Made by a program: the position numbers and the translations under genes. Below, piece by piece: positions 2,209-37,958 of a DNA stretch of 64,000 bases. The notes below the pieces were generated by a model. It was given only the letters and a program-made list of their open reading frames with translations, was not told where the DNA came from and ran no database searches. Numbering within the stretch: position 1 is the first letter of the stretch; each line of letters begins with the position of its first letter. Source of the stretch: Dehalogenimonas lykanthroporepellens BL-DC-9 (GTDB lineage: Bacteria > Chloroflexota > Dehalococcoidia > Dehalococcoidales > Dehalococcoidaceae); NCBI GenBank assembly GCA_000143165.1, contig CP002084.1, forward strand, positions 806,001 to 870,000, given 5' to 3'.

Positions 2209-3447
2209 TCAGATGGAACTCAGCGCCATAGCCAGCATAACGGCGGCCATGACAATGGCCAGATTAATGACCACCAGCAGGGTTATCCAGGTGCCGCTGG
2301 TCAGCTTCCTGACAACGGCCTTGAAAAGGGCTTCCTCGGCCTTTTCCAAAGCCTGTTTGGAAGCCTGAGAAGCGGCTTCAGCGATTTCTTGCGCCCGCTG
2401 AGCGGCCTGGTCGGCGTGGGCCTGGGCGGCCTTGGAGACCTCGGCGGCGGCCACCCTGGCCGACTGCCCGGCGCTTTCGGCCCGCTTGATCATATCCTGA
2501 AGTACACCCAGCGCGGCGTGAATGGCATCATCGCCGGCCTTATCGGCGTTTTTAGCCGCGGTAATGGCGTCATCAGCGGTTTTATGTCCGCCGGTGGCGG
2601 CGGCGACAGAAGCCTTGCCGGCTTCTTCGGTTTTGCCGGAGATTGCATCGGACACCTTGCCGGCGGCCTCGACAGCGTCAGCACCGACCCGTTCCGCCAG
2701 TTCGGTCTTCCGGGCAACTTCTTCGGCCAAGTGATAGGCCTGGCTGGCGGCCAGTTTAGCCTTGCGGCCGGTTTCATCGGCCTGTCGCGCCGTTTCGTTG
2801 GAGGGGTTTTGCTGAGCGGCTTTGGCGGCTATCTGAGCTTCAGTCGACGCGGCATCAGCGGTCTTGACGGTTTTGGTGGCTTGAGCGATGGTTTCTTCCA
2901 GCGACTGCCTGGCGGCCAGCGCCAGTTCCTGAAGTTTGATTGCGTTTTCTTCGGCTGACCGGTTGAGAGCCATTGAAGCTTCGCGGGCGGCCATGGCTAC
3001 TTCTTCGGCTTTAGAAGAAGCCTCTTCGGCGGCATATTTGGCGGCACGAGCGACCTCCTCAGCGCGATGGGCGGCTTCTTCGGCCCGGGCGGAGGCTTCG
3101 TCGGCGATGCGGGAGGCCTCCTCAGCCTTGTGTGAAGCTTCGCTGGAAGCGTGGTCAGCGCCTTCAGCCTTGTGGGCGGCTTCCTCAGCGGCTTCCTTGG
3201 CTTCGGCGGCGGCGTGAGCCGCGGCCCGGGTAGCTGATTCAGCGGCATCTTCGCCCGCCTTTCGCGCTTCTTCGGCGCGTTTCTCGGCTACCAGCGAAGC
3301 CTTGGTGGCGGCATCAGCCGAGTTACCGGCACTTTTGGCGGCCTCTTCGGCCTTCTTGGCGGCTTCGGCGGCGGCGCGGATACTGGCATCCATCTCGTCC
3401 AGTATCTGGGGCAGTGGCTTAACCAGGATATTAGGCTCAGTTACCAT
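2209..3447 (-). CDS. Alanine/glutamate-rich coiled-coil protein with C-terminal membrane anchor
   Basis: Function unknown. Residues about 20-370 are almost entirely a heptad/undecad-like repeat of AEEAA, KAEEA and ARxAxE units, rich in Ala, Glu and Lys. This predicts a very long uninterrupted amphipathic helix or coiled coil, reminiscent of LEA or apolipoprotein-like low-complexity helices. The last 25 residues (about 386-410, TWITLLVVINLAIVMAAVML) form one transmembrane helix ending close to the C-terminus, so the bulk is probably a rod tethered as a tail-anchored protein. There are no cysteines and no signal peptide. The ATG start has an AGGAGGT site 4-5 nt upstream. The opposite strand has long open frames only because of the repetitive GCC/GCG composition; those are artefacts. 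Confidence 0.85.
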   Translation of the reverse strand: MVTEPNILVKPLPQILDEMDASIRAAAEAAKKAEEAAKSAGNSADAATKASLVAEKRAEEARKAGEDAAESATRAAAHAAAEAKEAAEEAAHKAEGADHASSEASHKAEEASRIADEASARAEEAAHRAEEVARAAKYAAEEASSKAEEVAMAAREASMALNRSAEENAIKLQELALAARQSLEETIAQATKTVKTADAASTEAQIAAKAAQQNPSNETARQADETGRKAKLAASQAYHLAEEVARKTELAERVGADAVEAAGKVSDAISGKTEEAGKASVAAATGGHKTADDAITAAKNADKAGDDAIHAALGVLQDMIKRAESAGQSARVAAAEVSKAAQAHADQAAQRAQEIAEAASQASKQALEKAEEALFKAVVRKLTSGTWITLLVVINLAIVMAAVMLAMALSSI

Positions 3448-6615: not shown

Positions 6616-6644
6616 TTGACAAACCCCCGCGAGGCATTTAGACT
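6616..6644 (+). promoter_or_regulatory. Promoter of FtsZ-like gene 1
   Basis: TTGACA (6616-6621), a 17-nt spacer and TAGACT (6639-6644) lie 32 nt upstream of the ATG. The ribosome binding site GAGGGG follows at about 6662. Confidence 0.7.
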
Positions 6645-6676: not shown

Positions 6677-7852
6677 ATGAAACTAGTAGTGGTCGGACTC
6701 GGCCAGGCCGGCGGCCGCATCGCCGATGAATTCGCCCGGATAGCCATCAAAGTCAGACAGGACCGGGGACTGCGCATCGTCACCGACATTCTGGCCGTCA
6801 ATACCGATTCCGCTGACCTGTCTTCCCTGGTGAAGGTCAAAAAGGATATTCAGCACCGGATACTTATCGGTACCGGGCAGACTCATGGCCACGGTGTCGC
6901 CAAGATATCCGAAATGGGCGCCGAAATCGCCAAGAGTGAAAAAGACAATGTTATCGGCATCGTCAAGAAAAACGAAAGGTTTTACGAAGCGGATGCCATT
7001 CTCCTGATAGCCTCCGGGGGAGGCGGCACCGGTTCGGGAACCCTGCCGGTCATGGCTCAGGCTTTCAGGGACAGTTTCCGGGATAAACCGGTTTATGCCA
7101 TGGTCGCTCTACCCTATGACCACGAACGGCAAACAGAAGAAAGAGCCGTTTTCAATACCGCGATGTGCCTCAAGTCAACCCGAGATGTCACCGATGCCAT
7201 TATTCTGGTGGATAACCAGCGTTTCATCCGGAAATCCCAGTCATTGGCCAGCAATTTCCAGAAGATAAACGAACTTATCGTAGCGCCATTCTATAACCTT
7301 CTGGCCGCCGGTGAGGAAAAGAACCCCAAATTCATCGGCACCTCGGTGCTGGACACCGGCGACATCAAGGAAACGCTCAACGGCTGGACCGGTATCGGTT
7401 ATGGCACGGTTGACGTCGATATCATTCCCAAGTTCCGCGGTGAAACCAATTATCTTAGAAAGAATCTCGAATCCCAGCGCGGCCTTTACGCCCTCGACGA
7501 AGCCCTGGCGGAGATGTCGGTCAGTCTCAACCCGGTCGATGCCGGGCGGGCCGCTCTTCTGGTTTCCGGGCCGGCCAAGGAGCTGAGCGTCGATATGGTG
7601 GGCGACCTTTCGGCGCGCCTGCGGGAAGTGGCGCCCTCGGCCCAGCAAAGGCTGGGCGATTACCCAAGGGAACGCGGCATCATTGACGTGAGCGTCATTC
7701 TTTCGGAATTGTCCGACATTGCCATACTGCGCCGTTTCTTTGAAGATTCCAAGGAACTGGCGGCCGAATTCCAGGAACGGCAGAAACTGCGCTCGGTCAA
7801 GACCGATCTCACCGAAGAAGCGGCCCGGGACGTGCCCTCCCTGCTGGATTAG
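6677..7852 (+). CDS. FtsZ/tubulin-superfamily GTPase, paralogue 1 (391 aa)
   Basis: The N-terminus is a glycine-rich nucleotide-binding start (VVGLGQAGGRIADEF). The tubulin/FtsZ signature GGGGTGSG is at residues 114-121. The segment LDTGD (225-229) aligns with the FtsZ T7 loop NxDxxD and keeps both catalytic aspartates (D226, D229), but has Val in place of the Asn. The protein ends in DVPSLLD, similar to the FtsZ C-terminal peptide core DIPxFL. It is colinear without gaps over about the first 230 residues with a second copy at 36780-37958. It is not canonical FtsZ; cytoskeletal polymer formation is inferred. It is a single-gene unit with its own promoter and a hairpin after it. The cellular role is unknown. 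Confidence 0.85.
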   Translation: MKLVVVGLGQAGGRIADEFARIAIKVRQDRGLRIVTDILAVNTDSADLSSLVKVKKDIQHRILIGTGQTHGHGVAKISEMGAEIAKSEKDNVIGIVKKNERFYEADAILLIASGGGGTGSGTLPVMAQAFRDSFRDKPVYAMVALPYDHERQTEERAVFNTAMCLKSTRDVTDAIILVDNQRFIRKSQSLASNFQKINELIVAPFYNLLAAGEEKNPKFIGTSVLDTGDIKETLNGWTGIGYGTVDVDIIPKFRGETNYLRKNLESQRGLYALDEALAEMSVSLNPVDAGRAALLVSGPAKELSVDMVGDLSARLREVAPSAQQRLGDYPRERGIIDVSVILSELSDIAILRRFFEDSKELAAEFQERQKLRSVKTDLTEEAARDVPSLLD

Positions 7853-7947: not shown

Positions 7948-7976
7948 TTGTCATATTAGGTCGTCAAGTGTATACT
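7948..7976 (+). promoter_or_regulatory. Promoter of the nuo operon
   Basis: TTGTCA (7948-7953), a 17-nt spacer and TATACT (7971-7976) give 5/6 matches in each hexamer, 44 nt upstream of nuoA. The ribosome binding site GGAGG follows near 8006. Confidence 0.75.
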
Positions 7977-8020: not shown

Positions 8021-8395
8021 ATGCTTACCCAATTCGGCTATGTCGGGCTTTTTATTATCGTCGCAATCGGCTTTATCCTGGTGACGCTGGGAATACCGGC
8101 CCTGCTGGCCAGGCTGACCAAAATCGTGCCCAAAAACCCCAGCCAGGTCAAACAGGAAACTTATGAGTGCGGTATGGAAACTACCGGGCGGTCATGGGTG
8201 CAGTTCAATTTCCGCTACTATATCTACGCACTGATGCTTATCGTCATGGATGTACTGGCGGTATTCCTGTATCCCTGGGCGGCCAGCCTGGGCGAATTGG
8301 GGTTCGGCGCCTTTTTCGTAGCGGTTTTCTTTCTGTTCATGGTCAGTGTGGGTTATTTTTACGCCTGGAAGAAGGGAGCACTCCAATGGCAATAG
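8021..8395 (+). CDS. nuoA: Complex I subunit A (NADH-quinone oxidoreductase chain 3)
   Basis: This 124-residue protein has three transmembrane helices (about 10-30, 65-88, 95-117). It carries the conserved loop [13 protein letters not shown] between helices 1 and 2, which lies near the quinone site of complex I. It is the first gene of an 11-gene operon, nuoABCDHIJKLMN. Its last codons overlap nuoB by 10 bp, so translation is coupled. Confidence 0.95.
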
Positions 8396-8997
8396 AGCAA
8401 CCGTATAATTACGCTTATTCCGATCTGGAACTGGACGCCCGCGAGGGCGAGTTGGTGGAAAACTTCTTCCGGGACAACCAGACGCCGAACGTCGATCCCG
8501 CCGCATGGCTGAACGAAGATGCACTACCGCCGAATGTTTTGCTAACAAGTGTGGACAAGGTGGTCAACTGGTCCCGGCGCTACTCCATGTGGCCAGTTAC
8601 CTTCGGCTTGGCCTGTTGTGCCATTGAGATGATGTCTATGGCCGCTTCTCGTTTTGACCTGGCCCGTTTCGGCATGGAGATTTTCCGGGCCTCGCCGCGC
8701 CAGGCGGATCTGATGATAATAGCCGGCACACTGACCTGGAAAATGGCTCCCTGGCTAAGACGTATTTATGACCAGATGCCCGATCCCAAATGGGTGGTGG
8801 CTATGGGTTCCTGTGGCATCTCCGGCGGGCTTTTCAATGATTCTTATGCTGTTGTTCCGGGATTCAACAGAGTGGTGCCGGTAGACGTTTATGTTCCCGG
8901 TTGCCCACCCCGACCCGAAGCCCTGATGCAGGCTATCATGGACATCCATGCTAAAGTGGATAAAATGAGCCCGACGAGAAAGGCTGTAACCCCATGA
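8386..8997 (+). CDS. nuoB: Complex I subunit B (carries cluster N2)
   Basis: The 203-residue NuoB holds the [4Fe-4S] cluster N2, the last electron donor before quinone. Ligand motifs are visible as [17 protein letters not shown] and [11 protein letters not shown]. The frame is open further upstream inside nuoA, but the ATG at 8386, preceded by GGGAGCACTCCA, is the natural start ([13 protein letters not shown]). The N-terminus is about 40 residues longer than in E. coli. Confidence 0.95.
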
Positions 8998-9446
8998 ACT
9001 TCAGGATAAACCCTGCCACCGCCGGTGAGGCGATAAACAGGGAATTCGGAACCGGAACCGCGGCCGCCGATGATGTCAGACTGCTGGTCGACGGCAAGCG
9101 TCTGCTCGAGGTTTGCCGCTGGCTGAAGGATGAGTCCCCATACCGGCTGGATTACCTGAACTCGCTGACCGCTGTCGATAACAAGACTCATTTTTCGGTA
9201 GTCTATCACCTGTCGTCCCTGGCAATGGGCGGACAGCTTTCGTTCAAGGTCGACCTGGATGACCGCCAGTCCCCGAGCCTGCCGTCGGTCACTCCGGTCT
9301 GGCGCGGCGCCGATTTGCAGGAACGCGAGGTCTTCGATATGTTCGGCATTTCATTCACCGGACACCCCTGCCTGAAACGTCTGTTCCTATGGGAAGGCTT
9401 TCCGGGTTACCCACTGCGCAAGGACTGGGTGAGCCGTGACTCTTAA
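8994..9446 (+). CDS. nuoC: Complex I subunit C (30 kDa type)
   Basis: The 150-residue protein has the conserved NuoC C-terminal signature REVFDMFGI, then [22 protein letters not shown]. It is part of the peripheral arm, contacts NuoD and has no cofactor. It starts in a 4-bp ATGA overlap with nuoB. NuoC and NuoD are separate here, unlike the fused NuoCD of E. coli. Confidence 0.94.
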
Positions 9447-10539
9447 GACTGACCATTATGTAATCAACATCGGGCCGCAACATCCGAGCACCCACGGTGT
9501 TTTTCGATTGCGTCTGACCCTGGACGGCGAGGTCATCATCGATGTCGAACCGATTTTCGGTTATCTCCATCGAGGTATGGAGAAGCTGGCTGAAAGCCGA
9601 AATTATACCAAGAATATACCCCTGACCGACCGGTTGGACTACCTGTCTTCAATGATCAACAACCAGGCTTACTGCATGGCCGTGGAAGACCTCATGAAGA
9701 TTGAGGTGCCGGAACGGGCGCAGTACATACGTGTCATCATGGCCGAACTTCAACGCATCAGCGCCCACCTGGCTGGCGTCGGCTTCTTCCTGAACGATAT
9801 CGGCGCCTTCATGACTCCTATGCTGTATATGTTCCGCGAGCGGGAGAAAATAGTCGAACTCTTCGATATGGTTTGCGGTCAGCGGCTTAATTACAACTAC
9901 ATGCGTTTCGGTGGCGTCGCTATGGACCTGCCTGAAGAGTTCCTGCCGGCGTTGAAAAAACTATTGAACGAAATGCCCGGTTTCATCAACGAGTACGACC
10001 AGCTTATCACTACCAATGAAATAGTGCTGGCCAGATGCAAGGGAGTTGGCGTCCTGCCGAGGGAACTGGCTATCAATGCCGCTACCGCCGGACCGGTTCT
10101 CCGCGGTAGTGGCATCGAATGGGACCTGCGTAAGAAACGGCCATATTCCGTTTATGACCGTTTCCAATTCGACATTCCCACCGGTGAAAACGGCGATACC
10201 TACGACCGTTACATGGTACGTTTGGAAGAAATGCGGCAGAGCGTCCGTATCCTTAAGCAGGCTGTCGAGCAATTGCCCGATGGTGAGTACATAGGCAAGG
10301 CGCCCAAGCTGATTCGTCCGCCGGCCGGCGAAACCTATACTGCCGTAGAAGGAGCCAAAGGCGAACTGGGCTTTTATGTCGTCGCCGACGGCTCGGAAAA
10401 CGCCTATCGCTGGCATGTCCGGGCCCCGTCACTGATTAACCTGACGGCCTTGAGAGAAATGGTAATCGGCTGGAAGGTAGCCGACCTGATGGCCATCTTC
10501 GGTAGTATCGATATCGTGATGGGCGAGGTAGACCGCTGA
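9436..10539 (+). CDS. nuoD: Complex I subunit D (49 kDa type, quinone site)
   Basis: This 367-residue homologue of hydrogenase large subunits forms the quinone pocket with NuoB. It shows INIGPQHPSTHGV at the N-terminus, YLHRGMEKLAE, and the conserved end FGSIDIVMGEVDR. The GTG start at 9436 overlaps the nuoC stop by 11 bp. Confidence 0.96.
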   Translation: MTLKTDHYVINIGPQHPSTHGVFRLRLTLDGEVIIDVEPIFGYLHRGMEKLAESRNYTKNIPLTDRLDYLSSMINNQAYCMAVEDLMKIEVPERAQYIRVIMAELQRISAHLAGVGFFLNDIGAFMTPMLYMFREREKIVELFDMVCGQRLNYNYMRFGGVAMDLPEEFLPALKKLLNEMPGFINEYDQLITTNEIVLARCKGVGVLPRELAINAATAGPVLRGSGIEWDLRKKRPYSVYDRFQFDIPTGENGDTYDRYMVRLEEMRQSVRILKQAVEQLPDGEYIGKAPKLIRPPAGETYTAVEGAKGELGFYVVADGSENAYRWHVRAPSLINLTALREMVIGWKVADLMAIFGSIDIVMGEVDR

Positions 10540-11594
10540 TGGACTGGTTGCATTTCGCCGTGTTCACGTTGATCTTGTTCGCCTTCGTCATCTCGGGCGT
10601 TTTGTTTTTCATCTGGTACGAACGCCGGGGGCTCGGTCGGTTTCAAATGCGACCGGGACCAAACCGCGCCGGACCTTTCGGGTTACTTCAACCGGTGGCC
10701 GATGCTATCAAAGTTTTGCTTAAGGAAGATATCGTCCCAACCCTAGCCGATAAACCGGTCCATTTCCTGGCGCCGCTGGTGGCTTTCGTCCCGGCGATGG
10801 CGGTGTTCGCGGTCATCCCCTTCGGCGACGGAGCATTGCTGGCCGATCTGAATATCGGCATCCTTTATATCATGGCAATCAGTTCGGTAATCGTCATCGG
10901 CATCTTCATGGCGGGCTGGGGCTCCTCCAATAAATACTCGCTTTTGGGCGCCATGCGTACCATCGCACAGGAAGTCAGTTATGAAATTCCTCTGGTGTTA
11001 TCCATTCTCGGAGCGGTGATGCTGGCCGGTTCGCTGTCGCTTAATGACATCGTCAAGGCCCAGGACGTCCCGTTCGTTCTGTTGCAACCCCTTGGTTTCC
11101 TGATATATATGACGGCGGCCCTGGCCGAAATCAACCGGACGCCTTTTGACCTGTTGGAAGCTGACTCGGAAATCGTTGCCGGCTTCCAGACGGAATATTC
11201 GGGTATGAAATTCGGTCTGTTCTACTTGACCGAATACGCTGAGGCACTTTCGGTTTCGGCCATCGCCAGCACCCTTTTCCTCGGCGGTTGGTCCGGCCCG
11301 GCTTTTTTGCCAGGTTTCGCCTGGCTGATAATCAAAATTATCGCCGTATTCACTTTCATCATATGGGTCCGGGCTACTTTCCCGCGCCTTAGAATAGACC
11401 AGGTCATGAGTTTCTGCTGGAAATTTCTGTTGCCGCTGGCCTTGATTAATCTGGTGGTGACGGCCGTACTTGTACTCAGTGGTTTGAACGATTCACCGTG
11501 GATTGCCATACCTTTTAACCTGCTGCTGGCGGCGGTACTCATCGTCGGATTGAGCCGCCAGTTCCGTACCGGAGGTGGCCATGCCTCCACTTAA
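10539..11594 (+). CDS. nuoH: Complex I subunit H (membrane, quinone-site subunit)
   Basis: The 351-residue protein has about eight transmembrane helices. Conserved segments include YERRGLGRFQMRPGPNRAG, EINRTPFDLLEADSE and the arginine in WVRATFPRLRIDQ. It links the peripheral arm to the proton-pumping arm. The ATG overlaps the nuoD stop by 1 nt (TGATG). Confidence 0.96.
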   Translation: MDWLHFAVFTLILFAFVISGVLFFIWYERRGLGRFQMRPGPNRAGPFGLLQPVADAIKVLLKEDIVPTLADKPVHFLAPLVAFVPAMAVFAVIPFGDGALLADLNIGILYIMAISSVIVIGIFMAGWGSSNKYSLLGAMRTIAQEVSYEIPLVLSILGAVMLAGSLSLNDIVKAQDVPFVLLQPLGFLIYMTAALAEINRTPFDLLEADSEIVAGFQTEYSGMKFGLFYLTEYAEALSVSAIASTLFLGGWSGPAFLPGFAWLIIKIIAVFTFIIWVRATFPRLRIDQVMSFCWKFLLPLALINLVVTAVLVLSGLNDSPWIAIPFNLLLAAVLIVGLSRQFRTGGGHAST

Positions 11595-12162
11595 GCATTT
11601 CGGTGAAGGATTGTTACGTGGCCTGAAAATAACCGCCCGGCACCTGGGACGCAAGTGGATCACCGTCCAGTATCCCGAGCAGAAGCTGACCATGTCCCGG
11701 CGCGTTCGGGGCACCGATATCATCTGGGACCGCGAAAGCTGTATCTCCTGCCGTGCCTGCGAACGGGCCTGTCCGGTAGGTGCCATCAAAATGGAAGTCT
11801 CCCGGGGCGAAGATAAGAAACTCAAAACCGATGATATCACCGTCGACCTGGGTCTGTGTATCTTCTGCGGATTGTGTATCGAATCCTGCCCGACCGGTGT
11901 TTCGATTTACATCGGGTATAATTATGCCAATACCACTTACCGCTGTACCCACTGCGCGACCGACAAGTCCGGCACCAGCCCGTCGAACGGTCACTGTGGC
12001 GAACTCATCCGCAGTAATGACGAACTATTGCCCAATGACGCCGTCAGACCACGTTCCGGGTACTATCGCCCTGAGAGGGCCGGGGAACTACCGCCCCAGA
12101 CCCTGCTGGTATATCAAACGACTTATGGCGAAGACCGCCGCCGGAAGAAGGAGAGCAGGTAA
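11581..12162 (+). CDS. nuoI: Complex I subunit I (two 4Fe-4S clusters) with extra cysteine tail
   Basis: Two ferredoxin motifs, CISCRACERACPVG and CIFCGLCIESCPTG, hold clusters N6a and N6b. The 193-residue protein continues past the usual core with C122, C125 and C139 (CTHC then GHC) and a charged tail, which may bind another metal. I start at ATG 11581 behind GGAGGT. A GTG at 11575 is in frame but overlaps that ribosome binding site. Because NuoEFG is absent, NuoI is the likely entry for electrons from a ferredoxin-type donor (inference). Confidence 0.94.
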   Translation: MPPLKHFGEGLLRGLKITARHLGRKWITVQYPEQKLTMSRRVRGTDIIWDRESCISCRACERACPVGAIKMEVSRGEDKKLKTDDITVDLGLCIFCGLCIESCPTGVSIYIGYNYANTTYRCTHCATDKSGTSPSNGHCGELIRSNDELLPNDAVRPRSGYYRPERAGELPPQTLLVYQTTYGEDRRRKKESR

Positions 12163-12650
12163 TGGAGCTGGCTTTCTTCATTTTCGCCTCCGGAATCATC
12201 GGCACCGCCCTGGCAGTGGTGCTGTTCCGAAACATCTTTCGCGCTTCCCTAATGCTTATACTGTGCTTTTTCCTGGTAGCCGGGCTGTTCGTCACGCTTT
12301 ACGCGGATTTCCTGGCCGCCATCCAGGTGCTGATATATGTCGGCTCCATTTCGATACTGATTATTCTGGCTATCATGCTGACCAGGGAAATACAGACCGG
12401 CAATCTGTCAAACCGACTGAGGGCTCCGGCTCTGTTTACCGGTGCCGGCGTCACTCTGGTCTTAATACTGACAAGTGTGGGCACCGACTGGAACGTATCC
12501 ACACTGAAACCGGCGGAAAACACCACCGCCCTTTTAGCCGAACTGCTTTTTTCAACGGACAGTTTCATGATGGCGGTAGCCATGGCGGCCATACTCCTGT
12601 TGACTGCCATTATCGGAGCTATCATCCTGGTACGGAGTGACGACAAATGA
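12162..12650 (+). CDS. nuoJ: Complex I subunit J
   Basis: A 162-residue membrane protein with five predicted helices and the conserved motif VLIYVGSISILIILAIML in its third helix. It forms part of the proton-translocating arm. It begins at the nuoI stop (TAATG, 1-nt overlap) and overlaps nuoK by 4 bp. Confidence 0.94.
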   Translation: MELAFFIFASGIIGTALAVVLFRNIFRASLMLILCFFLVAGLFVTLYADFLAAIQVLIYVGSISILIILAIMLTREIQTGNLSNRLRAPALFTGAGVTLVLILTSVGTDWNVSTLKPAENTTALLAELLFSTDSFMMAVAMAAILLLTAIIGAIILVRSDDK

Positions 12651-12961
12651 TGGAAATCGGGCTGAATCATTACCTGGTGCTGTCGGCCATCCTGTTCGGC
12701 ATCGGACTGTGGGGAGCTTTGTCCCGCCGCAGTGCCGTAGTAATACTGATGTGCATTGAGCTCATGCTTAATGCCGCAGCCATCGCCATGGTTGCCTTTT
12801 CACGTTTCGTAACCCCCGAATTGCTGACCGGCCAGGTATTCACCATTTTTATCATTGTGGTCGCTGCGGCGGAAGCAACGGTGGCACTGGCCATCATCAT
12901 GTCTGTCTACCGCAACCACGATACCATAGACGCCACTAAGATTGATTTAATGAAATGGTAG
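12647..12961 (+). CDS. nuoK: Complex I subunit K
   Basis: The 104-residue protein has three transmembrane helices. Conserved membrane glutamates lie in CIELMLNAAAI and in VVAAAEATVALAI, both used for proton translocation. ATG ATG at the start; the first overlaps the nuoJ stop. Confidence 0.95.
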   Translation: MMEIGLNHYLVLSAILFGIGLWGALSRRSAVVILMCIELMLNAAAIAMVAFSRFVTPELLTGQVFTIFIIVVAAAEATVALAIIMSVYRNHDTIDATKIDLMKW

Positions 12962-12977
12962 AGAGAGTGAACGTATA

Positions 12978-14939
12978 GTGATTACGGCGCCGTTCGTCTG
13001 GGCGATCCTGCTACTACCATTGGCGGCCTTTGCCTTCATTGCTCTGGTTCTTAAACCGCTGGGAGTTCGACCGGCCTGGAGCGGTTATATCAGCATTGCC
13101 GCCATCGGCGGGGCCTTGGCGCTCTCCCTGTGGGCACTGACTGGGGTAAACAGCGCCGATCATCACGAAATACTTATTGCCCCGCTGGACTGGGTCAATG
13201 TGGCGGGGCTGAAGATTCAGTTCGGCATCATCCTGGACGGACTTACGGCGGTGATGCTGGTAGTGGTAACCTTTGTGGCCTTGATGGTTAATATTTACTC
13301 CCAGGGTTACATGCACAGCGACCCGGGTTACCCGCGTTATTTTGCCTTCATGTCGCTTTTCAGTACGGCCATGATCGGCCTGGTGCTGAGCGACAACCTG
13401 TTTATTACCTTCGCCTTCTGGGAGTTGGTCGGACTGTGTTCCTACCTGCTGATAGGCTTCTGGTTTGCCCGGCCGGCGGCAGCAGCGGCGGCCAAGAAGG
13501 CCTTTATCGTGACCCGTATCGGAGATTTCGGCTTTCTGGCGGCGATTTTACTGCTGTTTGCTAACACCGGCACGCTGGATATCCGGGAGCTTAACGAGTT
13601 GGCCATTGCCGGTATATTAGCCGGTAGCGTACTGACCTGGGGCGCCCTGGGCATCTTTGTAGGCGCAGTGGGCAAAAGCGCCCAGTTCCCGCTACACGTC
13701 TGGTTGCCGGACGCCATGGAAGGCCCGACACCGGTATCAGCGCTCATCCATGCGGCAACGATGGTTGCGGCCGGTGTCTTCCTGGTGGCCCGCACCTATC
13801 CAATTTTTGAACACTCGGCAACGGCGCTGACCACGGTAGCGGTTATCGGCGGAGTGACCGCCATTTTTGCCGCCACCATGGGGCTGGTGATGCACGACAT
13901 GAAGCGGGTGCTGGCGTATTCCACCATTTCCCAACTTGGTTACATGATGCTGGGGCTGGGCACCGGCGGCGTGGCCATTGCCATTTTCCACCTTATGAAT
14001 CACGCCTTCTTCAAGAGTCTGCTATTCCTGGGTTCCGGCTCGGTCAACCATGCCACCGGCACTTTTGATATGCGCCGGATGGGCGGGCTGAAAAAATACA
14101 TGCCCAAGACATACTGGACGATGATGATAGCGTCGCTGTCCATGGCCGGTATCTGGCCGCTGTCCGGTTTCTTTTCCAAGGACGAGATTGTGGCGGGATC
14201 GTCGGCACAACCGATATTGTTCACTCTGGCGCTGATAACTGTTTTTATTACCGCCTTCTATATGTTCCGGCTGATGTTTATGAGTTTCCACGGCAAATAC
14301 CAGGGCGAGGGGCACCCGCATGAGTCGCCTTTGGTGATGACCGCGCCACTACTGATACTGGCCGTGCCGGCGGCGTTCTCCGGATTGCTGAACCTGACCG
14401 GGGGCTTCGGCGCGCTGTTCGGCCACGGGGAGAGCGTCAGTATCCTCAAGGGCTTGTTCGGGGCATTCAGCCACGTGGAAACCTGGCTGTCGCTGGCGCT
14501 GGCCGGCGCGGGAATATTCCTGGCTTATGCCATCTATATCAAGGGCTGGGTGAACGCCGGTAGCATCAGCCGGCGCTTCGGTGCCCTCTACGAACTGGTT
14601 AAGCGCAAGTACTTCCTGGATGAACTTTATGAAAAAGTCATCGGTGAAATTGTGCTACTACGCGGCGTATTTGCCGGATTCCATTACTTCGACAACCGCT
14701 TGCTGGACAATGGACTGAACACTCTGCTGGTGCAGAACGTCATTACCCGCAAGCTGTTCGGCCGGTTCAGGTATTTCGATGAAAAAGCGGTGGACGGCAC
14801 GGTTAACGGCGTGGCCGACGGCACTGTGGCCGCCGGCACCATTCTGCGCCGGGTTCAGACCGGGCAGTTGCAGACCTACGGGTTGTTTATTTCCATGGGT
14901 ATTTTGATTATTGTCGTGGCGGTGTTTCTCGCCGGTTAG
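12978..14939 (+). CDS. nuoL: Complex I subunit L (antiporter-like)
   Basis: The 653-residue Mrp-antiporter-like subunit has the conserved blocks FWELVGLCSYLLIGFWF, PLHVWLPDAMEGPTPVSALI, HAATMVAAGVFL and KRVLAYSTISQLGYM. The long lateral helix is expected in the C-terminal 150 residues. The start is GTG 12978; a weak GAGAG element lies upstream. Confidence 0.95.
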   Translation: MITAPFVWAILLLPLAAFAFIALVLKPLGVRPAWSGYISIAAIGGALALSLWALTGVNSADHHEILIAPLDWVNVAGLKIQFGIILDGLTAVMLVVVTFVALMVNIYSQGYMHSDPGYPRYFAFMSLFSTAMIGLVLSDNLFITFAFWELVGLCSYLLIGFWFARPAAAAAAKKAFIVTRIGDFGFLAAILLLFANTGTLDIRELNELAIAGILAGSVLTWGALGIFVGAVGKSAQFPLHVWLPDAMEGPTPVSALIHAATMVAAGVFLVARTYPIFEHSATALTTVAVIGGVTAIFAATMGLVMHDMKRVLAYSTISQLGYMMLGLGTGGVAIAIFHLMNHAFFKSLLFLGSGSVNHATGTFDMRRMGGLKKYMPKTYWTMMIASLSMAGIWPLSGFFSKDEIVAGSSAQPILFTLALITVFITAFYMFRLMFMSFHGKYQGEGHPHESPLVMTAPLLILAVPAAFSGLLNLTGGFGALFGHGESVSILKGLFGAFSHVETWLSLALAGAGIFLAYAIYIKGWVNAGSISRRFGALYELVKRKYFLDELYEKVIGEIVLLRGVFAGFHYFDNRLLDNGLNTLLVQNVITRKLFGRFRYFDEKAVDGTVNGVADGTVAAGTILRRVQTGQLQTYGLFISMGILIIVVAVFLAG

Positions 14940-14955
14940 AGGAGGTGTCTGTTAA

Positions 14956-16452
14956 TTGGATATGCCCTATTTAACACTTACGATTGCTATCCCAATCCTG
15001 GGAGCGTTACTGATCGCCCTCTGGCCGCGGCTGAGCAGTAAAAACATCCGGAATATCTCACTATTAGCCACCGCTCTGCCACTGGCGCTGTCGATTATCG
15101 TTTTTGCCGGTTTCGACCGTTCCGCCTCCATGAACGGCGTTATTCAGTTCAGCGAAAAGGTGTCCTGGATACCGCTGATCAACGCCAATTTCGCCCTGGG
15201 GGTCGACGGCCTGTCACTGCCGTTCCTGCTGTTGACGACCCTCCTCGGGTTCCTGGTGATACTTATTTCCTGGAAAATCGACCTCCGGGTCCGGGAGTAT
15301 TTCGCCTGGTTGCTGTTGCTTCAAGCCTCCATCACCGGTGTCTTTCTGGCCCAGGATTTTCTGCTGTTCTTCTTTTTCTGGGAACTGGAACTGATACCTA
15401 TGTATTTCCTCATTGCCATCTGGGGCGCGGGACGTCGCGAATATTCGGCACTGAAATACGTGCTGTACACCTTGCTCGGCGGAGCCTTCATCCTGGCCGG
15501 TATCCTGGTGTTGTTCTTCGGCACCGGTTCGCTGGATATGGCTTATCTGGCTTCGGTGGATCTAACCGGATTGCTGGCGCCGGGCATGCTGACGTTGGCC
15601 TTTTTATTCTTCTTCCTGGGGTTTGCCATCAAGTTGCCGGTATTCCCCTTCCATACCTGGCTTCCGGATGCTCATACCGACGCGCCCACCGCCGTTTCAG
15701 TGATACTGGCCGGAACCCTGCTGAAAATGGGCGGATACGGCATGATCCGGGTTAATGCCGCTATGTTCCCGGACGAGGCACTGCAGTTCGCTCCTTTTAT
15801 TTTGGTGCTGGCGGTGATCAATATTGTCTACGGGGGCGCGGTAACACTGAAACAGACTGACATCAAGCGGTTAATCGCTTACTCGTCAATCAGCCATATG
15901 GGTTTTGTACTGCTGGGCATCTTTGCTCTGGGGCACCTGTCGATGATCGGGGCCTCTCTGCAAATGGTGTCCCACGGCATCATCACCGGTTTGCTGTTCG
16001 CCATTACCGGGGTGGTCATGCACAACACCCATGAGCGCTCCATTCCGAAAATGGGCGGCTTGACCCACCAGATGCCGCGGTCAACGGTGATATTCGTGCT
16101 GGGCGGCCTGGGCGCCATGGCGGTACCGGCTACATCCGGTTTCATCGCCGAGATCTGGACCTTCATCGGCGCGTTCTCGTCAGGTGTCGTGCCTCATATC
16201 GAGGTTTATACCGTGATCTCTTTGCTAGGCATCCTGCTGGCGGCGGCATATATTCTGTGGACGATTCAGCGCGTATTTTTCGGCCAGCCGCTTGAGAAGT
16301 TCGGGCAGGTCCGTGACGCTGACCGGGTCGAGGTCGGCTTTTCGGTGGTTTTCGTCATCGCCATGTTCGTCATCGGCCTGTACCCGAGAATCCTGACCGA
16401 TGTATTCGAAGGCGGCATCGCCCCCATCGCCGCACTGTTCGGAGCGAGCTAA
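14956..16452 (+). CDS. nuoM: Complex I subunit M (antiporter-like)
   Basis: The 498-residue protein carries FFFFWELELIPMYFLI, PVFPFHTWLPDAHTDAPTAVSVIL and KRLIAYSSISHMGFVLLG, typical of NuoM. The TTG start at 14956 is 9 nt after GGAGGT; the in-frame ATG two codons later would be too far away. Its stop abuts nuoN directly. Confidence 0.95.
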   Translation: MDMPYLTLTIAIPILGALLIALWPRLSSKNIRNISLLATALPLALSIIVFAGFDRSASMNGVIQFSEKVSWIPLINANFALGVDGLSLPFLLLTTLLGFLVILISWKIDLRVREYFAWLLLLQASITGVFLAQDFLLFFFFWELELIPMYFLIAIWGAGRREYSALKYVLYTLLGGAFILAGILVLFFGTGSLDMAYLASVDLTGLLAPGMLTLAFLFFFLGFAIKLPVFPFHTWLPDAHTDAPTAVSVILAGTLLKMGGYGMIRVNAAMFPDEALQFAPFILVLAVINIVYGGAVTLKQTDIKRLIAYSSISHMGFVLLGIFALGHLSMIGASLQMVSHGIITGLLFAITGVVMHNTHERSIPKMGGLTHQMPRSTVIFVLGGLGAMAVPATSGFIAEIWTFIGAFSSGVVPHIEVYTVISLLGILLAAAYILWTIQRVFFGQPLEKFGQVRDADRVEVGFSVVFVIAMFVIGLYPRILTDVFEGGIAPIAALFGAS

Positions 16453-17913
16453 GTGGAATTCAGTTATCTGTTACCGGAAATAATCGTGCTGGGCACGGCT
16501 GTGGCCGTGATCCTGACCGACCTGTTCATTAACAATAAAAAGGTCATCACCGCGCTGTCGCTGGGCGGTCTGGCGGGGGCGCTGGTAGCGGCGATCATCG
16601 GCTGGCCGGATGCAGGCCGCAGTTTTTTCGGCGGCATGATGACGCACGATGCCTTCGCCTCTTTCTTCAAGGTATTTTTCCCGGTGATGGCTGGTCTGGT
16701 CATCATGGCTTCGGTGGACTGGACGCATAAATTCGCCCGTTTCCGCAGTGAATATCACGCTCTGGTGTTACTGGCGGCGACCGGTATGATGCTGATTGCA
16801 GGAGCGACCAACCTGATCACCCTGTACCTGGCGCTGGAAATCACCGCCGTGGCTTTTTATGTACTGGTAGGTATCCAGAAGGATAAAAAGTCTACCGAGG
16901 CAGCGTTGAAATACGTACTGCTGTCCGGTACGGCCTCAGCGGTCCTGGTGTACGGTATGGCTCTGGTGTACGGCTTTACCGGTACAACGGGATTGGAGGA
17001 GATTGCCGCAGTACTACAGGCGATGGCCCCCGGCGCCATACTTGATTCACCCGGACTGCTGATGGGGCTGGTGCTCATTATTGCCGGGCTGGGCTTCAAG
17101 ATTGCCGCCGTGCCTTTCCAGTTCTGGGTACCGGATGTTTATGAGGGCGCGCCGACGCCGGTCACCATGTATTTGTCCATTGCATCCAAAGCCGCCGGTT
17201 TTGCCATTATCCTGCGGATACTGGGCACAGCCTTTTTGGAGCCCGGAGCGCTGGCACAGCAATGGGCGCCGGTAGTGGCGGCGCTGGCCGCCATCGGCAT
17301 GACCATGGGCAATCTGATGGCCATACCGCAGAAGAATATCAAGCGGCTACTGGCTTTCTCCACCATAGCCCACGCCGGATATATACTGGTAGGTCTGGCG
17401 GCGCTGGGCAATGCGCCCGACCTTTCCAGCGTGGCCATCGGCAGTATTATCTTTTATTTGATCGCTTTTGCGGTCAGCGACCTGGCCGCCTTCATTACGG
17501 TCATCGCCATTTCCAACAAGCTGAAAAGCGACAATTTTGCCGATTACGCCGGGCTGATACGTACGTCGCCGTTTATCGGCGGAATGCTGACGCTGGCACT
17601 GCTGTCACTTATCGGCTTTCCGCCGACGGCCGGTTTCCTGGCTAAATTTTATATTTTCGCCGCCGGCGTTCAGGCCGACCTGTTGTGGCTGGTGGTGGTG
17701 GCCGCGGTCAATACAGTAATTTCCGCTTACTACTACTTCGGAGTCATCAAGGTGCTGTGGATGCGTGAACCGGCGAATGAAACGCGTATCGTTGCTTCGG
17801 GGCCGCTGACAGCGGCCTTGGCTGTTTCTTCCTTAGGCATACTTCTTTTCGGCATTCTACCGGCGCTGGCGATGAAACTGGCCGAATCAGCGGCCGGGGT
17901 CTTCGGAGGGTAA
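16453..17913 (+). CDS. nuoN: Complex I subunit N (antiporter-like), last gene of the operon
   Basis: The 486-residue protein shows YLALEITAVAFYVLVG, PFQFWVPDVYEGAPTPVTMYL, and KRLLAFSTIAHAGYILVG. GTG start with no gap after the nuoM stop. No nuoE, nuoF or nuoG follows, so the NADH-oxidising module is not encoded here, as is known for Dehalococcoides. Confidence 0.95.
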   Translation: MEFSYLLPEIIVLGTAVAVILTDLFINNKKVITALSLGGLAGALVAAIIGWPDAGRSFFGGMMTHDAFASFFKVFFPVMAGLVIMASVDWTHKFARFRSEYHALVLLAATGMMLIAGATNLITLYLALEITAVAFYVLVGIQKDKKSTEAALKYVLLSGTASAVLVYGMALVYGFTGTTGLEEIAAVLQAMAPGAILDSPGLLMGLVLIIAGLGFKIAAVPFQFWVPDVYEGAPTPVTMYLSIASKAAGFAIILRILGTAFLEPGALAQQWAPVVAALAAIGMTMGNLMAIPQKNIKRLLAFSTIAHAGYILVGLAALGNAPDLSSVAIGSIIFYLIAFAVSDLAAFITVIAISNKLKSDNFADYAGLIRTSPFIGGMLTLALLSLIGFPPTAGFLAKFYIFAAGVQADLLWLVVVAAVNTVISAYYYFGVIKVLWMREPANETRIVASGPLTAALAVSSLGILLFGILPALAMKLAESAAGVFGG

Positions 17914-33371: not shown

Positions 33372-34655
33372 ATGCTGACTGTCAAACAGGTCAAAGGCCA
33401 TGAAATCGTCGATTCCAGAGGCACCCCAACCGTGGCCGCTACCGTTACCCTGTCGGACGGCGCCACCGGCTGGGCGGCTGTGCCATCCGGAGCCAGTACC
33501 GGTACTCACGAAGCCGTCGAACTTCGGGATTATGACCATGGCCGTTATCAGGGCAAAGGTGTCCTGAAAGCAGTTCACAATATCGACCGGGAACTGGCAC
33601 CGATGCTACTGGATATGCCTGCCGGCGACCTGGAAACAGCAGACCGAACCATGATTGCCCTCGACGGAACCACCAATAAAAGTCGCCTGGGGGCCAACGC
33701 GATCCTGGCGGTGTCCCTGGCGCTTGCCCGCGCGGTAGCGAATTCCGGAAAAATGCCATTGTATCGCTCTTTGAATCCGGTTGGCGGATATAGATTACCG
33801 GTACCTATGCTGAACATCCTCAACGGCGGTAAACACGCGGCCGATTCCACGGATTTTCAGGAATTCATGATAATGCCCACCGGCGCCACTACTTTTGCTG
33901 ATGCCCTCAGAATAAGCGCGGAAATATTCCACTCGCTTAAAGCCCTGTTGAAGAAAAAAGGCTACAGCACTAATGTCGGCGATGAGGGCGGATTCGCGCC
34001 TGCCTTGAAATCCAATGTTGCGGCGTTCGAAGCCATCATAGAGGCGGCAACGTCAGCCGGATATCAGGCCGGGCGCGACTATTACCTGGCGCTGGATGCG
34101 GCGGCATCCGAGCTTTATCAGGATGGCAAGTATCATCTGGCACGCGAGGGTCGTGTATTGACAAGCGCCGAGATGACCGATTTTTATGAGTCTATCACCC
34201 GGGATTATCCGATTATCAGCATAGAAGACGCCCTGTTCGAAGATGACTGGGACGGCTGGTGCCTTTTGAACTCTAAAATTGGAAAAAAGGTACAGCTGGT
34301 AGGAGATGATCTTTACGTCACCAACATCGACCGTCTGGCACAGGGTATAGAGAAACAAGCGTCCAATTCCATTCTTATCAAACTGAACCAGATTGGCAGT
34401 CTGACAGAAACTATTGCCGCAGTCGATATGGCTCATCGCCAGAACTGGACTGCCGTCATCAGCCATCGATCCGGTGAAACTGAGGACACTACCATTGCCG
34501 ACCTGGCAGTCGCCCTGGGTACCGGCCAGATAAAAACAGGCGCCCCGGCCAGAGGCGAACGTACCTGCAAATATAATCGACTACTGGCGATAGAGGATGA
34601 ACTGGGGGCGGAAGCCCGTTTCCCGGGCCTATCAGCATTTAAACACCTCTGCTGA
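33372..34655 (+). CDS. eno: Enolase
   Basis: The 427-residue enzyme interconverts 2-phosphoglycerate and phosphoenolpyruvate. Visible motifs: [32 protein letters not shown], the metal ligands [11 protein letters not shown] and [10 protein letters not shown], and [18 protein letters not shown]. The ATG follows GAGGGTAATCCAAT. It lies in a plus-strand group with the HgdB-like gene and gap. Confidence 0.97.
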
Positions 34656-34661
34656 ATTCAG

Positions 34662-35675
34662 ATGAATAACATCGGTATTACCACGACAGTACCCATTGAG
34701 GTCATTCTGGCGGCGGGTAAACAGCCGATGGACCTGAACAATATATTCGTCAATTCCCCTGAACCGGCAAAACTGATCACTATAGCTGAAAATGACGGCT
34801 TTCCGCTGAATACCTGCGCCTGGATAAAAGGAATATACGGAGCGGTACACGAACACAACATCACCGATGTTGTCTGTGTCACCGGGGGTGACTGCTCCAA
34901 TACGCAGATACTGATGGAAGTACTGCGTTTCAAGGGCATCAAAGCTATTCCTTTTTCTTTTCCGGATGCACCCTGTGGGGTGAAAATGAACGCAGAAAAC
35001 ACCCGATTCGCCGAGATGCTGGATACTACTCTCGATGCGGCAGAAGCACAGCGTGCCGGATTGCAGCCTGTCCGCGACAGACTTCAGGAACTTGACCGTC
35101 TGACCTGGCAGGAGAACCGTGTCAGCAGTTGGGAAAACTACTCGTGGCTGGTGTCATCATCCGACTTTAATGGAAATATCGAGGATTATTCTGCAGAGCT
35201 GAAGAATTTTTTACGCTCAATAGCACAGCGTCCGCAATTTCCTGAAACCGACATCCGACTTGGTTTGACCGGAGTGCCGCCGATATTTGCCAAGGGCCTT
35301 CTGTCATATCTGGAACGTTTCGGCGCCAGAGTGGTATTCAACGAAATACCTCGTCAGTTTTCCATGCCGTTCAAATCAGCAGACCTGGGAGAACAGTACG
35401 CTTCTTACACTTATCCTTATTCGATGAAAGACAGGTTGAACGATATCTCCGGGGCGATTGCGGAAAGGAAAATCGAGGGCGTAATTCACTATGTACAGTC
35501 TTTCTGCCATCGAGCCATAGGTGATATACTGTTACGGCATGAACTTACGGTTCCTGTATTGACCATTGAGGGGAACAGCGACACGGAAATTTCCCAGCAC
35601 CTGAAAACCAGACTGGAAGCCTTCGTCGACATGTTACAGTTCAAAAAACAGAAAAGAGAGGTAAGTCAATGGTAA
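34662..35675 (+). CDS. 2-hydroxyacyl-CoA dehydratase D-family (HgdB/BcrC-like) Fe-S protein
   Basis: The 337-residue protein resembles one subunit of the 2-hydroxyacyl-CoA dehydratase family: an N-terminal GITTTVPIEVILAAG start, cysteines in LNTCAWIKG, VTGGDCSNT and QSFCHRAIGD, and a C-terminal LTIEGNSDT. Such proteins carry an unusual [4Fe-4S] cluster and receive electrons from an ATP-driven activator. No partner subunit or activator lies nearby, so a different reaction is possible. It sits 6 nt after eno and overlaps gap by 7 bp. Confidence 0.83.
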   Translation: MNNIGITTTVPIEVILAAGKQPMDLNNIFVNSPEPAKLITIAENDGFPLNTCAWIKGIYGAVHEHNITDVVCVTGGDCSNTQILMEVLRFKGIKAIPFSFPDAPCGVKMNAENTRFAEMLDTTLDAAEAQRAGLQPVRDRLQELDRLTWQENRVSSWENYSWLVSSSDFNGNIEDYSAELKNFLRSIAQRPQFPETDIRLGLTGVPPIFAKGLLSYLERFGARVVFNEIPRQFSMPFKSADLGEQYASYTYPYSMKDRLNDISGAIAERKIEGVIHYVQSFCHRAIGDILLRHELTVPVLTIEGNSDTEISQHLKTRLEAFVDMLQFKKQKREVSQW

Positions 35676-36682
35676 CCAGAATCGGCATCAACGGATTCGG
35701 ACGCATTGGGCGTCTGGCGTTGCGTTCGATGAAAAAATATCACCCGAACGAACTCGAAGTTGTCGCTATAAACGACCTGGCAGATACCGCGACCAACGCC
35801 CACCTGTTGAAATACGATTCGTCCCACGGTATATACAACGGAAATGTCAGCGCTGACCAGGATTCCATCCACGTCGACGGCACCCGGATCAGAGCTTTTT
35901 CTGAAAAAGACCCGGCTAAAATACCATGGGGTGATTACGGCGTCGATATCGTCATCGAGTCAACCGGGCGGTTTACCGACCGTGATAAAGCGGCATGGCA
36001 TCTGAACGGCGGCGCCGGACGGGTAATAATCTCCACCACTTCGGCCACCGCAGATATTACCGTAGTCATGGGAGTCAATCACCACAACTACCGGCCTGAA
36101 GCTCACCGGGTTGTTTCCAATGCTTCATGCACCACTAACTGCGTCACCCCTATGGTCAAGGTCGTCTTCGATAAATACGGCATAGAAAAAGCGCTCATCA
36201 ATACTGTCCACGCGTATACCAATGACCAGAGCCTGCTGGATATCTTCCATAAAGATCTGCGTCGAGCCAGGGCCGCCGGGCTCAATATCATACCGACAAC
36301 TACCGGTGCCGCCAAAGCGGTCGCCCAGGTAATACCGGAACTGAAGGGACTGATACACGGCATATCGCTCAGAGTGCCGGTCGGTAACGTATCCATCGCC
36401 GATGTGACCGCTGTGGTCGAGAAAAACGTCACCGCGGAGATGGTCAACCAGGAGTTGAAAAAGGCGGCCGAAGGCGAACTCAAAGGAGTCATGGCCTACT
36501 GCGAGGAACCGCTGGTCAGTTCAGATTTCAAAGGCCACCCGGCAAGTTGTATCATTGACGCCTCTTCAACGATGGTGCTGGCCGACAATATGGTTAAGAT
36601 TCTCGGCTGGTATGACAATGAATGGGGATACGCTACCAGGCTGGGTGATCTGGCCGCTTATATGGGCACCAAATCCGAATAA
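35669..36682 (+). CDS. gap: Glyceraldehyde-3-phosphate dehydrogenase, type I
   Basis: The 337-residue enzyme has the NAD-binding start RIGINGFGRIGRLALR, the catalytic cysteine in SNASCTTNCVTP, and WYDNEWGYATR at the C-terminus. It catalyses the reversible oxidation of glyceraldehyde-3-phosphate. Coupled by overlap to the HgdB-like gene. The start ATG is preceded by AGAGAGG. Confidence 0.97.
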   Translation: MVTRIGINGFGRIGRLALRSMKKYHPNELEVVAINDLADTATNAHLLKYDSSHGIYNGNVSADQDSIHVDGTRIRAFSEKDPAKIPWGDYGVDIVIESTGRFTDRDKAAWHLNGGAGRVIISTTSATADITVVMGVNHHNYRPEAHRVVSNASCTTNCVTPMVKVVFDKYGIEKALINTVHAYTNDQSLLDIFHKDLRRARAAGLNIIPTTTGAAKAVAQVIPELKGLIHGISLRVPVGNVSIADVTAVVEKNVTAEMVNQELKKAAEGELKGVMAYCEEPLVSSDFKGHPASCIIDASSTMVLADNMVKILGWYDNEWGYATRLGDLAAYMGTKSE

Positions 36683-36718: not shown

Positions 36719-36747
36719 TTGACATCGTTAATAGCGGTATCTACAAT
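36719..36747 (+). promoter_or_regulatory. Promoter of FtsZ-like gene 2, with overlapping inverted repeat
   Basis: TTGACA (36719-36724), 17-nt spacer, TACAAT (36742-36747). An inverted repeat CCGCTATT (36684-36691) / AATAGCGG (36730-36737) places its right arm in the promoter spacer, a possible operator. Confidence 0.75.
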
Positions 36748-36779: not shown

Positions 36780-37958
36780 ATGAAACTTATAGTTGTCGGG
36801 CTGGGTCAAGCCGGTAGCCGGATTGCCGACGAATTTGCCAAAATCAATAAAAGAGCTAAAAGCCAGCGGAATATAGAAATCTGCCCCGGTATCTTTGCGG
36901 TGAACACTGATGCCGCCGACCTTACCGGGCTGACGACCATTGAACCCGATTATCAGCATCGGATTCTTATAGGTGGTCGCAAAACCGGAGGACACGGTGT
37001 TGGTAAAATCAACGAACTGGGTGCCGAAGTAGCCCGGGCTGATGCCGATAAAGTCATTGACGCGTTGAGAACAGCAAAGCATTTTTACGAAGCCGACGCG
37101 TTCCTCCTGGCCGCCAGTACCGCCGGCGGTACCGGTTCGGGTTCCATTCCGATCATTGCCCAGAGGATCAAGGAAAGATACCCGGAAAAACCGCTTTATT
37201 CCCTGCTGGCTCTGCCTTTCGAGCATGAAAGAGATACGGAAGAGAGAGCGTCGTACAACTCCGCGGTCTGCCTGAAATCCGTATACTCCATTTCCGATTG
37301 TGTTTTTCTCATTGATAACCAGCGTTATGTCATGAAAGATTCTTCCCTGGGGAATAATATTTCCCGGATCAATGAAATGATTGTCGAGCCGTTCTATGAC
37401 CTGCTTTGCGCCGGTGAGGAAAAAAATCCCCGGTTCATTGGTGCCAAAACATTGGATGCTGGCGATATCATCCAGACAATGTCCGGCTGGTCGGTTTACG
37501 GCTGGGGTCATGCTGACCTGAGCAAATCCTTCAATCTATTCGAACGAAGCAACGATTTCCGCAAGAAGGGAGCCGAAACTCACAAAGGCATTCAAGCCAT
37601 GGACGAAGCCATAAGCGAAATGTCATTGAGAGTGAATCCCAAGGATGCCGGACGCGCCATCTACCTGGTATCCGCACCTGCCAAGGAAATGAACATGGAC
37701 ATGATGCGGGAACTGAATGAATGGATGAGAGAAATGTGCCCCAACGCCATCATTCGAAACGGTGATTATCCCCGTGGATCGAATCGTATCTCCATCACCG
37801 TCATTCTTTCGGAGCTTTCCGATGTCGAAAAGGTGCGCAATTTCTATTCCGATTCCATCGACCTGATTCCGGTTATCAAGCAACGCCAAAGCGAATTACG
37901 CAATAAACTTGGCGATATCGACGACATGAGCCGCGACATCCCTTCCCTTCTGGAATAA
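36780..37958 (+). CDS. FtsZ/tubulin-superfamily GTPase, paralogue 2 (392 aa)
   Basis: This is the second copy of the FtsZ-like GTPase, colinear with the first without gaps through residue 230. It has VVGLGQAGSRIADEF at the start, the G-box TAGGTGSG (114-121), TLDAGDI in the T7-like loop with D226 and D229, and a C-terminal DIPSLLE. The long arm KSFNLFERSNDFRKKGAET differs from copy 1. The strong ribosome binding site AAGGAGG precedes the ATG. Flanked by its own promoter and a strong terminator, it is a single-gene unit. Role unknown; heteropolymerisation with copy 1 is plausible but untested. Confidence 0.85.
   Translation: MKLIVVGLGQAGSRIADEFAKINKRAKSQRNIEICPGIFAVNTDAADLTGLTTIEPDYQHRILIGGRKTGGHGVGKINELGAEVARADADKVIDALRTAKHFYEADAFLLAASTAGGTGSGSIPIIAQRIKERYPEKPLYSLLALPFEHERDTEERASYNSAVCLKSVYSISDCVFLIDNQRYVMKDSSLGNNISRINEMIVEPFYDLLCAGEEKNPRFIGAKTLDAGDIIQTMSGWSVYGWGHADLSKSFNLFERSNDFRKKGAETHKGIQAMDEAISEMSLRVNPKDAGRAIYLVSAPAKEMNMDMMRELNEWMREMCPNAIIRNGDYPRGSNRISITVILSELSDVEKVRNFYSDSIDLIPVIKQRQSELRNKLGDIDDMSRDIPSLLE

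Follow-up and report, generated by a model that had tools for sequence, protein, structure and literature searches.

CetZ-type tubulin-superfamily GTPases in the peptidoglycan-less part of the Dehalococcoidia

Introduction

Two genes in a 64,000-nucleotide stretch of the Dehalogenimonas lykanthroporepellens BL-DC-9 chromosome (the window; contig CP002084.1, positions 806,001 to 870,000) encode proteins that resemble FtsZ, which raises the question of where in the tubulin superfamily these proteins belong and what they might do for the cell. Dehalococcoides, which belongs to the same class, is used in bioremediation and has a flat, irregular cell shape. Part of the class lacks peptidoglycan, as do most archaea. 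According to PMC10284905, this loss occurred in the ancestor shared by orders 10-25 of the class, among them the Dehalococcoidales. Reviews and primary papers, PMC9856176 and PMC11621097 among them, call CetZ proteins archaea-specific.

Results

The initial annotation described two genes for FtsZ/tubulin-superfamily proteins of 391 and 392 residues, and both open reading frames are present as described. cetZ-A (6677-7852, plus strand) encodes the 391-residue protein P0001, and cetZ-B (36780-37958, plus strand) encodes the 392-residue protein P0002. On the antisense strand of each gene, the mirrored frame is interrupted by stops. The two proteins are 50% identical over their full length, and since the first gap in the BLASTP alignment falls near residue 248, the earlier statement that they align without gaps through residue 230 holds. 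The motifs reported at that time can all be read in the translations: a G-box at residues 114-121 (GGGGTGSG in P0001 and TAGGTGSG in P0002), the LDxGD motif at residues 225-229 (LDTGD and LDAGD), and Val224 or Thr224 at the position of the FtsZ Asn. Translation and alignments place the codons for L225-D229 of cetZ-A at 7349-7363 (plus strand). The host genome, which is complete at 1,686,510 bp, holds three CetZ-type genes (at 812677, 842780, and 568303), and the third of these, a group C homologue at 568303-569469, did not figure in the initial annotation. An Rfam scan of the 64-kb window found one tRNA and nothing else.

P0001 and P0002 match the Pfam Tubulin domain (PF00091) with 97 and 116 bits and the CetZ_C domain (PF21011) with 57.5 and 65.5 bits, respectively, in each case exceeding the curated cut-offs of 33 and 21.6 bits. 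Among FtsZ-bearing control genomes, CetZ_C was matched in Haloferax volcanii only. Against the FtsZ equivalog TIGR00065, the two proteins score 68.7 and 61.7 bits with a cut-off of 295.2, consistent with the earlier view that they are not canonical FtsZ; the host genome's own two FtsZs pass with 419 and 404 bits. A sequence search of the PDB ranks the CetZs of Haloferax and Methanosaeta highest. The AlphaFold2 models of P0001 and P0002 (pLDDT 88.8 and 85.4) have the tubulin/FtsZ fold that had been expected of them, and the structural comparison proposed with that expectation identifies CetZ as the closest solved fold for both, with FtsZ and tubulins weaker. The P0001 model matches CetZ with Z 45 and an rmsd of 1.6-1.8 A, as opposed to Z of 35 or less for FtsZ and tubulins; the closest structures to the P0002 model are likewise CetZs, and TubZ is among its structural matches. 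A divergent FtsZ is ruled out by the TIGR00065 scores together with this structural match, and it is well supported that P0001 and P0002 are CetZ-type tubulin-superfamily GTPases rather than odd FtsZs. Their host is a bacterium (Chloroflexota, Dehalococcoidia) and not an archaeon. We nonetheless keep the name CetZ-type, without calling them archaeal CetZ, because an archaeal host is a statement in the literature about distribution and not a sequence criterion.

The missing T7 Asn had been presented as a peculiarity of the two proteins. The T7 loop of haloarchaeal CetZs reads VVD[SA]SE, that is, two acidic residues and no Asn, so the lost Asn is a normal CetZ trait. The second of these acidic residues is E218 in Haloferax CetZ1 (4b46), which we take to be the residue mutated (E218A) to abolish GTPase function. 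Retention of the catalytic aspartates, also claimed earlier, extends to the family: D226 and D229 do not vary among 62 aligned sequences, and both T7 acidic residues persist in about 150 of the 158 members. In the main groups A-D, hardly any variation is seen in these residues or in the nucleotide loops. Eight of the 158 members, one of which (L085) is a truncated sequence, have no clear T7 signature. Where paralogues lack the first T7 Asp (groups X and short O), the C-terminal tail described below is usually gone too (6/8). In three Dehalogenimonas genomes (L152, L153, L154), the sole CetZ is a divergent one that has lost both features.

CetZ_C is matched in 51 of 61 relatives. Of the matches in 400 Chloroflexota genomes, those better than E=1e-50 all come from the class Dehalococcoidia, and weaker ones elsewhere are at the level of FtsZ. 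In a scan of 84,980 species genomes, the best 79 loci are titled Dehalococcoidia or Chloroflexi except for a few metagenome-assembled genomes (MAGs) labelled otherwise. Four MAG contigs titled Deltaproteobacteria/Syntrophaceae (L048, L049, L058, L091) carry typical Dehalococcoidia CetZ genes, and their titles are probably wrong. In a tree built by a quick method, the family divides into old paralogue groups, namely A (P0001), B (P0002), C (the third gene), D, and others; P0001 and P0002 are therefore not a recent pair. Within Dehalococcoidia, the family forms an ancient branch with multiple paralogues. The two-protein system suggested by the initial annotation does not survive this result: the host's three paralogues come from ancient groups that lie at separate locations, only two of these groups are present in Dehalococcoides, and CetZ_C finds no match in one complete Dehalogenimonas genome (G004). 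The Dehalococcoidia branch is split from FtsZ with support of 100/100 in a tree that includes few archaeal CetZs and neither archaeal FtsZ nor tubulin. Several Dehalococcoidia families also have a second type of CetZ (K; L137, L176-L180), which clusters with haloarchaeal CetZ at moderate support (84/73) and has no C-terminal peptide; it is possibly a later transfer from archaea. In Dehalococcoides mccartyi 195, the probable orthologue of P0002 is DET0589, which is annotated as FtsZ and lies near DET0590 (gap) and DET0593 (eno), the eno-HGD-D-gap-cetZ order being the same in Dehalococcoides and at cetZ-B.

The C-terminus is a further conserved feature that the initial annotation did not mention. 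The pattern K-D-[ILV]-P-[ST]-L-L is found at the C-terminus of 152 sequences and at the very end in most of them (consensus KDIPSLL-COOH). Position-wise consensus of the 152 homologues places its codons at 7826-7849 in cetZ-A (RDVPSLLD) and at 37932-37955 in cetZ-B (RDIPSLLE), both on the plus strand. The frequency of the top residue is 0.87 over residues 384-390 versus 0.49 over the linker (residues 361-383). AlphaFold2 confidence is low at the peptide, as expected for a flexible tail. The host's own FtsZs carry the C-terminal peptides ELDVPSFLRK and ELEIPAFLRQ, to which KDIPSLL-COOH is similar except that Leu stands for Phe and the following basic residue, Arg, is missing. Judged from its residues, the peptide resembles the FtsA/SepF-binding tail of FtsZ. 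Haloarchaeal CetZs (L115-L119) have a conserved short motif of their own at the C-terminus, [DE]L[DE]xLF, and KDIPSLL is absent there; the literature consulted on CetZ yielded no role for the haloarchaeal motif.

The genes adjoining the two cetZ genes of the window are metabolic. The nuo (complex I) genes adjoin cetZ-A at 8021-17913 (plus strand), with nuoI, J, K, L, and N identified via gene order, and a conserved set of eno, an HGD-D family gene, and gap lies upstream of cetZ-B at 33372-36682 (plus strand). Across the class, gap is directly upstream in 15 of 19 group B loci and dnaX is downstream in 13 of 18, while nuo adjoins 9 of 15 group A loci in variable orientation. Groups B and D are followed by dnaX-ebfC-recR (these three genes were named by eye from sequence). 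Many MAGs have the order eno-gap-cetZ-C2, then a coiled-coil gene on the opposite strand, then cetZ-D2-dnaX-ebfC-recR. A consensus scan predicts plus-strand sigma70-like promoters before cetZ-A (TTGACA-17-TAGACT, 6616-6644) and cetZ-B (TTGACA-17-TACAAT, 36719-36747), the -10 element ending 32 bp 5' of the start in each case, and another between cetZ-A and nuoA (7948-7976). Co-transcription with the neighbours is therefore not required, and the last of these predicted promoters suggests that nuo could be transcribed independently of cetZ-A.

A coiled-coil gene lies beside the third cetZ on the minus strand (L141:9535-11808; genome 569534-571807), convergent with it. It encodes a soluble protein of 758 residues (425 to 910 among relatives) with 28% Ala and a conserved RLExLxxMY C-terminus, and Pfam returned nothing above any cut-off for proteins of this family. 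The gene adjoins 30 of 32 group C/C2 genes, and it still lies beside cetZ where the gap-dnaX context is gone, namely in the BL-DC-9 genome, in Dehalococcoides, and in a further family of the class. Of 196 class genomes, 18 have the gene, all 18 of them CetZ-positive, and it is in none of the 151 CetZ-negative genomes. In many MAGs, a small Ala/Glu-rich helical protein (about 150-190 residues; L036 6995-7516, minus strand, and relatives) is encoded between cetZ-C2 and the coiled-coil gene and has a weak phasin-like match below the cut-off. The window itself encodes, 3.2 kb from cetZ-A, a 412-residue, Ala-rich protein that combines a coiled coil with a membrane helix at its C-terminus (2209-3447, minus strand); it has no Pfam match and falls outside the family of the coiled-coil gene beside the third cetZ.

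The initial annotation supposed that these cells lack typical division machinery. This is correct in that searches of the host genome for SepF, FtsW/RodA, and MreB gave no true match, the apparent MreB matches being two FtsAs and a 647-residue frame that is probably DnaK. It is incorrect in that the genome has two canonical ftsA-ftsZ pairs, which the annotation had not noted, and the cetZ genes lie outside these loci. Both pairs are complete, an observation for a single bacterial genome, and are located at 534 kb (L002) and 1216 kb (L001). Among the 196 class genomes, the CetZ family is found in 45 and FtsW/RodA in 93, with both in one. Thus, 44 of the 45 CetZ-family genomes are without FtsW/RodA (Fisher p ~6e-14, shared ancestry uncorrected). 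The exception (G044) is a MAG in which FtsW lies near a contig end, possibly a binning error. Neither FtsW/RodA nor the CetZ family is found in 59 of the 196 genomes, so that the family lies within the peptidoglycan-less part of the class and not throughout it. These 59 genomes and G004 indicate that wall-less life does not require the family and that the genus can do without it. Since the genomes are not phylogenetically independent, a single loss of peptidoglycan could by itself underlie the associations in distribution.

Discussion

On balance, we lean towards the view that these proteins form a CetZ cytoskeleton that controls cell shape and organises the envelope, with GTP-dependent filaments, a docking tail, and, for group C, a coiled-coil partner. 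The bacterial CetZ branch to which they belong has given rise to the paralogue groups A, B, C, D, and others within peptidoglycan-less Dehalococcoidia. GTP would be bound in the T1-T5 pocket of each subunit, subunits would assemble head to tail, and D226 and D229 in the T7 loop of one subunit would complete the GTPase site of the next to give dynamic filaments; polymer formation, which the initial annotation considered possible, we judge plausible. The disordered, invariant KDIPSLL peptide would dock these filaments on an adaptor, as the C-terminal peptide of FtsZ does, and group C would work with the long alanine-rich coiled-coil protein encoded alongside. In cells that have no sacculus, CetZ would then control shape and organise the envelope, and canonical FtsA/FtsZ would divide the cell. 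With two FtsAs in the genome and no match for SepF, FtsA is the leading candidate for the tail adaptor; only the resemblance of the peptides suggests FtsA binding. We are more doubtful of a fuller version, in which the paralogues make up a distinct bacterial cytoskeleton docked to FtsA via an FtsZ-mimicking tail, with group C bundled or cross-linked by its dedicated coiled coil, and serve as a shape scaffold that replaces both sacculus and MreB.

The FtsZ-like peptide, the two FtsAs, and the failure to find SepF and FtsW/RodA in the host genome would also suit accessory division proteins that co-assemble with or regulate the Z-ring via FtsA and replace missing divisome parts such as FtsW and SepF. 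We consider this role unlikely, given that the family is not universal in the genus (G004), that two canonical FtsA-FtsZ pairs are already there, and that no cetZ gene lies within an ftsA-ftsZ locus. Archaeal CetZ1, moreover, is described in PMC11621097 as acting mainly in shape and motility.

With gap, eno, and nuo as neighbours, other readings fit too. Instead of shaping the cell, filaments might act as organisers or sensors, those of group B for central carbon metabolism (GAPDH/enolase) and those of group A for respiration (complex I). The frequent adjacency of gap and nuo points that way, as do network inference in Dehalococcoides, which ties DET0589 to oxidoreductase transcripts, and the metabolic gene neighbours of archaeal cetZ (PMC9856176). 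However, the promoter-like sites just 5' of each cetZ and of nuoA make a shared transcript unnecessary, the dnaX-ebfC-recR genes that follow groups B and D are unrelated to metabolism, and the orientation of group A to nuo varies. Group C, in turn, leaves gap yet retains the coiled-coil gene. We therefore regard a metabolic scaffold as rather improbable.

Non-polymerising GTPase switches, which would have kept the fold and lost assembly, are suggested by the side paralogues (groups X and short O) without first T7 Asp and tail, but the nearly invariant T7 acidic residues and nucleotide loops of groups A-D make this very unlikely for the family. TubZ-like partition or other mobile-element tubulins share the superfamily, with TubZ among the structural matches of P0002, but are rejected as highly improbable, being strongly disfavoured by chromosomal loci conserved across several families, by the absence of phage matches, and by plasmid matches that are haloarchaeal CetZs only, at about 30% identity or less.

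Returning to the shape and envelope cytoskeleton, a bacterial CetZ that tracks the peptidoglycan-less part of a class would point to a use of CetZ filaments in cells lacking a sacculus, and CetZ-type proteins may help to shape wall-less bacterial cells. The branch would offer a tangible way into the question of how Dehalococcoides keeps its shape, and the shared tail motif predicts that a CetZ filament interacts with an adaptor in the manner of FtsZ.

CetZ-like sequences of Chloroflexota-Dehalococcoidia, presumably the same proteins, appear in one sentence of PMC9871819 as sparse paraphyletic groups with a C-terminal region matching the CetZ_C model; that section does not describe paralogue groups, the C-terminal peptide, the coiled-coil neighbour, synteny, or a link to peptidoglycan loss. 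In a literature search that left out most subscription journals and all preprints, we found no publication dealing with the tail, the neighbouring coiled-coil gene, or the connection to peptidoglycan. The invariant C-terminal peptide, the coiled-coil gene beside the third paralogue, and the conserved loci (gap-cetZ-dnaX and cetZ-nuo) are found here. BtubA/B, OdinTubulin, and TubZ share the superfamily fold, but their structural similarity is lower than that of CetZ (Z ~34 or less, with identities of 16% for OdinTubulin and 15-16% for BtubA). FtsZ, including the host's own two copies, shares the fold (Z ~33-35), the GTP-binding loops, and the T7 aspartates, and has a similar peptide, D[IV]PxxL, after a linker; P0001 and P0002 differ from it in their TIGR00065 scores (62-69 bits versus a cut-off of 295), in having no T7 Asn and a CetZ-type C-terminal domain, and in being encoded outside any ftsA locus. 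With archaeal CetZs (Haloferax volcanii CetZ1, 4b46, and CetZ2, 4b45; Methanosaeta, 3zid), they share the Tubulin and CetZ_C domains, the fold (Z 45, 31% identity), the MKLxxxGxGQxGG start, the GHGVG and RxGDYP motifs, a T7 loop that has two acidic residues but lacks the Asn, and several paralogues per genome. Unlike these, the Dehalococcoidia proteins occur in a bacterial host, read LD[AGT]GD rather than VVD[SA]SE in T7, end in KDIPSLL rather than [DE]L[DE]xLF, have a coiled-coil neighbour, and, as sampled, form a branch restricted to that part of a single bacterial class which lacks peptidoglycan.
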